Shown here piece by piece: positions 16,705 to 61,811 of a stretch of DNA of 64,000 nt. Within the stretch, counting starts at the first letter, position 1. Every line of letters begins with the position of its first letter. Both the position numbers and the translations under genes were made by a program. Below the pieces are notes generated by a model. That model was given only the letters and a program-made list of their open reading frames with translations. It was not told where the DNA came from and did not search any database. Source of the DNA: Ecdyonurus torrentis (Eukaryota > Arthropoda > Insecta > Ephemeroptera > Heptageniidae); assembly GCA_949318235.1 (NCBI GenBank), contig OX439131.1, positions 35,916,805 to 35,980,804 on the forward strand, in the 5' to 3' direction.

Positions 16705-19700
16705 TCAGTAATACTCTGTTATCATTGAATATACAAAGTCTCTGTCTCCAAAATACCAATAGTTAACATTTTTATCATTAATATAGCCACTGCGACGATT
16801 GTTGTATATTCTTTGTGTTTCTGTAGAGTCAGGCAAGCTCAATGGATACCTACCTGGTGTATGTAAAATTACCTTTATTTTGTAATCAAAACGTAAGTTC
16901 CCGCTAGAATCTCTCTCATTGTACATTGGTATTGGTTGGGTAAAATTAACAGTAATGAAAGAATTACATTTTACTTTACCTTCAAAATGAACAGAATCTA
17001 TAACTTCTAACTTATTTTTTATTAAATAAACCGTTAAATCTTCATTGTATGTAGTAAAGTAACGATGAGCTGATTGCATTGAGACTTCGTAATCAATTTC
17101 AGATTCATAAAAAGTTCTGCAATGAATTTGAGTTGGAATTTGAAAACCAATAACGCGCTTTAAATTTTCAATTTTTTGTTCTTTAGGCGATGCAGTATAC
17201 AAATCAAAGGTGTTTTCTTCTAACGCAAAAGTTTCTTCCCTCATTTTACAAATACTTAAGTCACTCCCTAATACTTTAAAATAAGAAGGTGAATGACGAC
17301 GGCCCCTAGAAATATTGTTAGATGATATATTTGTAGGCATTTGCAGTACACCCGGAGAATTTAGATTGAAAATCACAGACAAACTTTCGCTGTACGTAAG
17401 AATTTTAGAAGTAGCCTGCATGTTTGCAAATTCACTAGGCTCAAAGGTGAGAAAGCGGATGAGTCCAAGAGCGTCGCCCAAGACAAGTCTGAGAGACTCG
17501 GGCTCTTGTGGCAAGCCTCTACGTAAAGTTTCACTGATGGCCCAGCGAAGACTCGCCTCGTACAGTTTCACCTCGGAGCTCACGTTGAGGTCATCTCGTG
17601 ACAGGAAACCAACCAGAGCAGTCTGCGGAATCTGAGTGAAAGCAGGGTCCTTCATCGCCTCGTCCGTTCTCCACTCGATGATCTGAATATATAAAGGTAC
17701 GGATTTATAAATAGTATATTCCGGATTTCTGTGCAAGTTATTATCGTTACCTGAAGAGCAGCTTCTTTGATGATATCGTCATTTGCATTTTGTGCGCAAA
17801 TGTAACCTCGCCACACGTTGTTGGGGTAGAGATTTGCCCAGAGATACGCTCGGCACTGATGCACAAGAACTGGAATCTGCAGTCGAGAAGCCGTGTGCAG
17901 CAGCTCGCACGCCTCGGAGAAACTTGTCAGGCACACAGATCCAGAGTATACGAAACTAGGAGGAATGTTTTAATCAATAATCGTTTAAGGGAGTATATGT
18001 TACCGTGGGCGTAGATGGTAGCACAGTGAAAAAGTCGATCACTTTGGCATAAAAGAGCTGATTTTTGAATTTAAGGTAACCTACACACTGCATTAAAATA
18101 TAATCAGTTGCGTAGAAGTTTTTTTATTTATCAGTACTTACATTAGAAGCTTTATATAATTTATTTATATATGTATATATATATATATATATATATATAT
18201 ATATATATATGTATATATATATATATATATATATATATATATATATATATATATATATATATATATATATATATATATATATATATATATATGTATATAT
18301 ATATATATATATATATATATATATATATATATATATATATATATATATATATATATATATATATATATATATATATATATATATATATATATATATATAT
18401 ATTGCAGCTAATGAAAATTTTAATATAGAATTTTTTTTATAATGGGATGGTAAGTTAATCACATTTCTCAAAAAAATTGCAATAGTATCAGTTTACTTAC
18501 CTTAATACATATTCAAATATTTTGGGAGAAGTGTCTTTAATTTTTACAAGATTTATATTAGTTTCATTGAAAATTGCTTCGAAAATTGGACTTGCGCGAG
18601 CGAAAAATACTTTGTGAGCTGAAAATAACTGGAATTTTTGTTATGTTAATTTTTATATGACTATAAAATAATTATTATTACTTTATTTATGTAATACATA
18701 TAGTTAATATAGTGCTCGAGTAATAAAATACTTTAGGTTGTTATGACTTATAATATAAGACAAATCAACTCTTAACCCTTAGTTAGTGTTGTACTACGCT
18801 ATAAAAGTGTATAGTAATATTGCTTTACATGCTGTTAGGAGGAGGATTGATTATAACCATATTTTATTCAATTAGAAAAAATATATAAATTTTTTCTAAT
18901 TGCATTAAATATATAAGAAAATATAAATAAAATTTCAGTTTACAGAAATATAGATGGAATATCCTTACTTGTGTGTTATTCTCAATTCCCACTTCAAATC
19001 TACAATCAGCGAGAATATTTCTATTTAGCAGTTGCTGATTTCTTTGCTCCATTAAAGGAAATCCTTCTCGCCAATCAACATCATCACTGCTGGATTGACT
19101 TTCAGTTTCAAATTCAAATTTGAAACGAGATTCAGGATGGTAGTCTTCCTCAAAACCTGTAGTTTCCTGGTGCAACATATTATTTAGTAAAACTTGAAAT
19201 TGTGAACAACTTTGACAATTATAGTGGTCTTATATTTAAATTCTTTTAAGAAATATTATACAACTTTTAATTACCCGTCCATTATTGAGAGTTTATGTAA
19301 TAACGTAATTGTTAGTTCAGGTATGTGCATATCATTTTTTTAAAGCTTATAAAAGAACTGAAATGTATAATAGGGGTCTGAATATCTATAATAAATTGCC
19401 TTTAGATATGAGAAAACAGAATGATTTAAATTTTTTTTAAAACAACTAAAAAATTTCCTATTTAAATAAGCAGTATTACTCAATTATGAATAATTTTTTT
19501 TATTTGTATGTTGCAAATAGTTTGACAATCATTTCTATATTGCCATTTATTGGCAATAACCTAGACTAATGCATTTGATTGTGTTATGTATATTGGATGA
19601 AAGAAATGAATAAGAGAATTTTGAATTTGAATTTTGCAAAATTCATAGCAACAAAATAACGTTATGTTTACAGTGTACATTTTGTAATTATTATTTTATT

Positions 19701-61000: not shown

Positions 61001-61811
61001 TGAAGCCAAACGTAGGGGACTTGGTAAGGACCCCGAATCAATGAAAATAGCACTTGGACCTGCACTTGGGCTTATTAGATTTCTGACATTGTCACCAAAA
61101 GAATTTACAGATTCACAAATATCTACCAATCTATTGAATCACACTGAAACATTAGCAATTTTATATAATTTTAATTCACCTGGATCAGCAAGATTACCTG
61201 ATAATTTATCAGCAATTAAAAAACCAAGAGTTGAAAATGGAACTAAACATTTCGATGTTTTAGCAACTGAACAAGAATTTAGTCATTGCAAACATAGATA
61301 TGTACCATTCTTAATTAAAAAGAATTCATATGACGTATTTTCTCATTTTGATTTTTCAATCAAAGGTAAATTTGTTTTACATAATATTCAAATTCCTTCT
61401 CAACTGATGTCAAGAGCAAAAACAGAAAATACAAAAAATAATAATGTAGAAAATGAATATGAATATATCGATGATTATAATGATTCTGAATTTTACGAAG
61501 AAGCTATTACAGTTAATGTTATTTGGAATAATACTTTATTATATTCAGTGCCATATAAAACAGAAGTGCAATATAATTCATTATTAACAATACCTTTTAC
61601 AGAGACTTATAATTTCAATTATTATAGTTATTCACCTGAATCAAATAAGTATAAATTTAAATTTATTTTTCATAAATCTGGCAGATATCCAAGAAAGTTT
61701 ATGAAGCCAAAACCAACAGATATACAAACAAAACAAGTAAATGGGAAACAAATTGTGGTTTGGCATCCAACTGGAGACTCGTTTTTATACTCAATGTCGT
61801 ATTACTACTAA
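58021..61811 (+). CDS. BTB gene 7: signal-peptide BTB-BACK-PHR protein
   Basis: Predicted secreted paralogue, 600 residues; function unknown. Exons: 58021-58110, 58538-58657, 58974-59038, 59265-59349, 59420-59560, 59760-59896, 60186-60390, 60852-61811. The leader has hydrophobic core LAWLVLLFLVLLPRLIA; an internal ATG at codon 8 (MDKLAW) may be the real start. The N-terminal module has CYSFTQAAGFCSKFF and IDFDELVEYL, preceded by a second acidic stretch DVDELMHDLL. BTB has DCAILVG and RAHKLVLASASPVLE with sequon N164-N-T. One cysteine kept in the other six copies (QYCR-type) is Ala here (QYARAYLW). BACK has [19 protein letters not shown] starts near 415, has an acidic insert (ENEYEYIDDYND) and ends FLYSMSYYY. 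Exon 8 is less GC-rich at its 5' end than in the other genes. Confidence 0.88.
60711..60758. repeat. (GA)n microsatellite in intron 7 of BTB gene 7
   Basis: About 24 GA units, about 95 bp before the exon 8 acceptor. Confidence 0.95.

Follow-up and report, generated by a model that had tools for sequence, protein, structure and literature searches.

Seven tandem genes for predicted leader-bearing BTB-BACK-PHR-like proteins in Ecdyonurus torrentis

Exon structure of the gene cluster

A tandem cluster of seven genes, g1 to g7, for proteins with BTB and BACK domains and a PHR-like C-terminal region was analyzed in a window of 64,000 nucleotides from the ephemeropteran Ecdyonurus torrentis (GenBank assembly GCA_949318235.1, contig OX439131.1, here C10:35,916,805-35,980,804; analyzed genome of 503 Mb in 117 contigs). 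Common exons were detected via self-comparison of frame fragments, and exon junctions were set by eye from the sequence without a gene finder. All seven genes could be rebuilt intact, each with eight exons, a single terminal stop, GT-AG at every internal junction, and a coding length of 568 to 631 residues. The intron phases after exons 1 to 7 (0, 0, 2, 0, 0, 2, and 0) and the length of exon 7 (205 bp) are identical throughout. The minus strand carries g1 to g5, and the plus strand carries g6 and g7.

In g1, the putative leader exon 1 (21870..21962) is followed by exons 2 to 4 for a Cys-bearing N-terminal region (20480..21622; 21524-21622, 20983-21038, and 20480-20579), exons 5 to 7 for the BTB domain and the first part of BACK (17751..19166; 18969-19166, 18501-18628, and 17751-17955), and exon 8 for the rest of BACK and the PHR-like domain (16705..17682, stop at 16705). 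The corresponding parts of g2 are the leader exon at 31361..31453, exons 2 to 4 at 29311..30007 (29909-30007, 29480-29532, and 29311-29410), exons 5 to 7 at 26773..27844 (27647-27844, 27248-27375, and 26773-26977), and exon 8 at 25727..26704. Those of g3 lie at 35647..35745 (leader), 34379..34846 (34718-34846, 34553-34620, and 34379-34481), 33001..33700 (33512-33700, 33286-33419, and 33001-33205), and 31808..32776 (exon 8).

In g4, the leader exon (41452..41517) precedes exons 2 to 4 (40093..41223; 41128-41223, 40841-40893 with the motif CYxxxEAxxFC, and 40093-40171), exons 5 to 7 (38827..39882; 39754-39882, 39164-39291, and 38827-39031), and exon 8 (37809..38759). The same motif occurs in g5, with the leader at 46327..46395, exons 2 to 4 at 45549..45948 (45883-45948, 45722-45792 with the motif, and 45549-45651), exons 5 to 7 at 44573..45409 (45281-45409, 44851-44993, and 44573-44777), and exon 8 at 43566..44501. 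It is also present in g6, with the leader at 49244..49315, exons 2 to 4 at 49889..51350 (49889-49990, 50236-50306 with the motif, and 51245-51350), exons 5 to 7 at 51465..52560 (51465-51578, 51963-52099, and 52356-52560), and exon 8 at 53159..54103. Gene g7 comprises the leader exon (58021..58110, first Met at 58021 and a second in-frame Met at 58042), exons 2 to 4 (58538..59349; 58538-58657, 58974-59038 with the variant CYxxxQAxxFC, and 59265-59349), exons 5 to 7 (59420..60390; 59420-59560, 59760-59896, and 60186-60390), and exon 8 (60852..61811, stop at 61811).

Leader exons and secretory-route marks

An earlier note on this DNA had claimed that each gene carries its own first exon encoding Met plus a hydrophobic core, spliced in phase 0, and this was confirmed in all seven GT-AG models. 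The signal-peptide check proposed there likewise found leader features in every gene by hydropathy, charge, and the (-3,-1) rule: a positive n-region (net +1 or +2), a hydrophobic core with a best uncharged 10-residue Kyte-Doolittle mean of 2.61 to 3.52, and cleavage-type residues. The leader up to one possible cleavage site reads MRRLLLIFMCISMRSLQIAA in g2, MARLNFNMVKLLLIYCASVLQIFVVNG in g3, MKLQSTSQFFFFFFLTFIVTLQA in g4 (the last A being encoded by exon 2), MGKLPMFQIILFVIIPVLNA in g6, and MARAHYIMDKLAWLVLLFLVLLPRLIA in g7. The exon 1 sequence differs strongly among g4, g5, the g6/g7 pair, and the g1-g3 group. The hydrophobic exon could alternatively be an uncleaved anchor of a type II membrane protein with BTB-BACK-PHR outward, to which the cores of g6 (3.52) and g7 (3.31), the most hydrophobic of the seven, would be suited. 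Residues allowed at -3 and -1 follow the core in all seven genes under a permissive rule, and the anchor is the least probable of the explanations considered here.

In six of the seven genes, the 2 kb ahead of exon 2 contain no phase-0 ATG exon locus other than exon 1 whose donor counts as strong (GTRAG, GTATG, or GTGAG, a set picked after the gene models existed); g5 has one further such locus. Outside the models, core hydrophobicity equal to or above that of the weakest leader was found in 25 of 131 phase-0 ATG mini-exons with a GTR donor and in none of the seven with a GTRAG donor; of the 608 ATG frames in the window with 20 or more amino acids, 48 reach this level. By our own arithmetic, the chance of six such leaders, with g1 and g2 counted once, is about 5e-5 to 2e-7. 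Exons 1 to 4 of g1 and g2 stay in frame relative to each other with one 3-base indel, and most introns differ in length. The coding case for exons 1 to 4 is made by the kept frame, the common phases, and the common properties.

Further marks of the secretory route were found downstream of the leader. Cys221 and Cys266 are invariant in the seven and missing in four of four leaderless homologs, and positions 261 and 279 hold Trp and Ala in the seven and Cys in three of the four. Exon 3 contributes an extra Cys pair in g4 to g7. Sequons at positions 164 and 399 are each present in six genes and in none of the four leaderless homologs. No second transmembrane-like stretch was detected, hydropathy elsewhere being at most 1.33 over 19 residues, and none of the seven proteins has a KDEL/HDEL-type C-terminal end, so retention in the endoplasmic reticulum (ER) is unlikely. 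The branch had been described as secreted or ER-luminal; entry into the secretory route appears probable, and the luminal alternative recedes with the missing retention signal.

Domain content, conservation, and CUL3 contact

The Pfam models for BTB (PF00651, best E 5.7e-21) and BACK matched all seven proteins, and the PHR model matched none, the C-terminal domain being too diverged; the PHR assignment was therefore addressed through profile and fold comparison. The branch gave a profile match to leaderless BTBD1/2/3/6-type proteins. A first structure model of exon 8, with a predicted local distance difference test (pLDDT) value of 57, gave weak fold matches (KLHL11 at rank 11 and the BTBD2 PHR structure 3no8 at rank 42). 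A second exon 8 model, built from the metagenome protein P0007 with 11 rows, reached pLDDT 71; Foldseek returned no PHR at E ≤ 0.001 and none among the best 50 matches listed, and PHR rows appeared only in the VIA second look. Profile and fold comparison give some support to a predicted PHR-like C-terminal domain; the BTB-BACK-PHR architecture proposed before holds for BTB and BACK by Pfam, with PHR as a candidate assignment. At E 0.1, no SRCR match was obtained with Pfam for any of the seven, Rfam gave no matches at the gathering threshold, and 21 pattern matches in viral contigs included no relative.

Conservation is concentrated in the BTB-BACK part. The seven share 86 invariant columns: residues 133-410 hold 73 of them, residues 411-600 hold 12, and a single one precedes residue 133. 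Between g1 and g2, the nonsynonymous substitution rate (dN) per 40-codon window is 0 to 0.06 over residues 161-400 and 0.09 to 0.26 beyond. The low dN in BACK was rejected as a sign of pure constraint, the synonymous rate (dS) being low there too. Across exon 7 and the beginning of exon 8 (g1 ~17955-17408), g3 matches g1/g2 at 83 to 91%, compared with 48 to 62% in the remaining exon 8, which suggests that the BACK part of g1, g2, and g3 underwent gene conversion. A constant frame with changing heads would fit an extracellular dimeric binding protein.

Among KLHL3 residues, the phi residue of the phi-x-E motif buries the largest surface in CUL3, and the substitution E85A severely disrupts binding (PMC3616122). 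In the alignment, phi-x-E in the alpha3-beta4 loop was missing from the seven proteins and from an eighth branch member on contig C12, and an N-x-T sequon lies inside this loop in g1, g2, g3, g5, and the C12 gene. The motif was present in the leaderless relatives P0002 (MPE), P0004 (IAE), L041 (MAE), and L042 (IAE); P0001 and P0003, also leaderless, carry Asp in place of its Glu. P0002 and P0004 belong to the moths Aphomia sociella and Chilo suppressalis, respectively. The earlier note had held that the branch is cut off from cytosolic CUL3. The leader and the missing motif point the same way, as far as making a CUL3 adaptor role in the producing cell unlikely for the predicted proteins. By the title of a 2025 paper (PMC12645945), the secreted BTB-BACK protein LGALS3BP reportedly acts through Cullin3, and a leader alone is therefore no proof against CUL3.

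The proteins might also be exported effectors in saliva, venom, or gall-inducing secretion, entering the cells of another organism and acting there on its ubiquitin system as CUL3 adaptors, in the manner of other insect-secreted mimics of that system. The leader in all seven genes and the tandem array with a divergent binding domain would agree with this, and a grapevine-galling insect reportedly uses secretory RING-finger proteins as effectors (PMC6892190), likewise a ubiquitin-system family with an export leader, RING there and BTB here. However, phi-x-E is missing in all seven, with a sequon in this loop in four, and loss of the CUL3 motif disfavors a CUL3-using effector that re-enters cells; this explanation is considered unlikely.

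Relatives, origin, and proposed role

A query with g4 exon 8 gave at least 70 genome matches at E ≤ 0.001, seven being the window genes; all genome match counts are lower bounds. These last-exon places for BACK-PHR (L009-L038 and others) mostly have open frames near 300 amino acids. According to a 2005 survey, BTB-BACK-PHR proteins number four to seven per metazoan genome (PMC1257465), and the count found here is a large lineage expansion. Exon 7 sets the branch apart, with eight places at E ≤ 2.7e-19, seven in the window and one on C12, and the next at 8e-11. Exons 4 to 8 of the C12 member were seen at C12:7687200-7702600 (L064, L039). A tree built from 33 exon 8 rows groups P0007 and the C12 gene with the seven in one clade (support 100/97), and P0007 nests there beside g1-g3 and the C12 gene. 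The inner order may be affected by gene conversion in exon 8, and the C12 gene has a long branch. None of the exon 8 matches in the analyzed genome corresponds to P0007, so this protein probably comes from another species, and the branch would be older than the split.

The paralog L041 on contig C4 has an in-frame exon 5 ATG two codons ahead of the conserved Trp, and its tblastn segments break at the exon 5-8 borders of the seven. The 0.87 kb upstream of this L041 exon contains one hydrophobic ATG mini-exon, in phase 1, which would not join in frame. For L042, no hydrophobic first exon was found within 4.66 kb; a candidate charged upstream exon with a weak donor is present. The simplest history would be a leaderless BTBD-type gene that gained four 5' exons (signal-peptide, linker, short Cys, and acidic).

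The seven genes are thus likely to encode secreted, CUL3-independent, probably N-glycosylated, and disulfide-bearing BTB-BACK-PHR-like proteins derived from a leaderless BTBD-type gene. The protein would be exported with its leader cleaved off, the BTB domain would still dimerize, BACK would hold the arms, and the PHR-like domains would serve as binding heads of a bivalent extracellular scaffold, in overall design nearer to LGALS3BP/90K than to a ubiquitin-ligase adaptor. As a tentative step beyond this, given slightly less than an even chance, the cluster may be an extracellular recognition family made from an exported CUL3-adaptor scaffold, in which the BTB-BACK dimer frame was retained, the CUL3 contact was lost and in part covered by glycans, and tandem duplication together with gene conversion diversified PHR, giving an LGALS3BP analog of independent origin.

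LGALS3BP/90K, a BTB-BACK(IVR) protein that is secreted and glycosylated, has a disulfide-bearing BTB that forms a canonical homodimer, an N-terminal SRCR, and a C-terminal part described as having no substantial homology to known domains (PMC6026745). It shares with the seven a leader before BTB-BACK; the seven lack SRCR, and PHR is not described in LGALS3BP. The likeness is one of design, and LGALS3BP was not among the best 60 of 67 solved-structure matches listed for g7 residues 1-281. The best solved relative of P0002 is BTBD6. The cytosolic BTBD1/2/3/6-type proteins (PMC1257465) have the same domain order as the seven, which add the leader and three further 5' exons, new cysteines, and sequons, and in which phi-x-E is lost and PHR falls below Pfam detection. 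BTB-BACK-PHR proteins are described as intracellular and expected to work with CUL3, and a term search of the 2005 survey found neither secreted nor extracellular nor signal peptide in its text (PMC1257465). Among the papers listed in searches of the openly available literature, none describes a BTB-BACK-PHR family that is secreted. Within these listings, the earlier statement that no such secreted family is known to be described stands for proteins with PHR but not for secreted BTB scaffolds, LGALS3BP/90K with SRCR being already known; the novelty here is the PHR-bearing variant. If the proposal is true, gain of 5' exons can turn a ubiquitin-ligase adaptor into an extracellular protein, with leaderless paralogs in the same genome for comparison, and a further secreted BTB scaffold would stand beside LGALS3BP, making PHR testable as an extracellular binding domain.

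Several points weigh against secretion as proposed. The seven genes are models built from the DNA letters, the leader call uses hydropathy, charge, and the (-3,-1) rule, and exons 2 and 4, with borders set by eye, resemble each other poorly between gene groups. The structure models span exon 8 only, at the pLDDT values given above, and part of the low g1-g2 dN in BACK reflects gene conversion rather than constraint, as the low dS indicates. Bulk sequon enrichment was rejected as proof of secretion, six of the seven proteins not exceeding the shuffled expectation. Loss of phi-x-E is not unique to the branch, as 7 of 14 other exon-6 paralogs lack the motif by eye, and g3 retains Leu-Glu without the middle residue. 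No convincing leader exon was found within 10.4 kb of the C12 member, whose exon 1 may be distant or lost. The leaderless status of L041 rests on its 0.87 kb of upstream sequence, and L040, the nearest outgroup, has a candidate phase-0 hydrophobic mini-exon (core 2.44). Exon 1 of g1 and g2 is 82% identical with dN/dS of 0.97, and exon 3 is 76% identical; several introns reach 62 to 81%, so purifying selection is not visible in exon 1 alone.

The last point would also agree with a skipped leader exon, the working protein being a cytosolic BTB-BACK-PHR adaptor from an internal Met and the leaders incidental. In six genes, a Met lies 5 to 7 residues past the conserved Trp of exon 5 and could start a leaderless product driven by an unseen internal promoter; L041 has its ATG in the corresponding exon. 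Against this, exon 5 has no Met ahead of the Trp in any of the seven, the first Met of g5 lies 98 residues past it, exons 1 to 4 hold frame and phases in all copies, and phi-x-E is missing. Such a product is improbable, and secretion remains the preferred explanation.

Traces of duplication and repeats were also observed in the window. The segment 21838-22559 matches 31329-32038 at 78% over 745 columns, spanning g1 exon 1 and, upstream of it, a relic of a g3-like exon 8 (its 3' end); the block duplication that created g1 probably left this scar. A dispersed repeat family has several copies in the window, among them 5558-5888, 16251-16632, and 46633-47044, in one orientation in these three, and a second, short family at 24358-24504, 41574-41775, 43199-43411, and 63204-63706, with the copy at 43199-43411 adjoining a long GACA tetranucleotide array (~42880-43195). 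On contig C11, at ~45.5-47.1 Mb, many BTB first-part exons (frames of 74 to 97 amino acids) with equal or almost equal scores apparently form a recent array.
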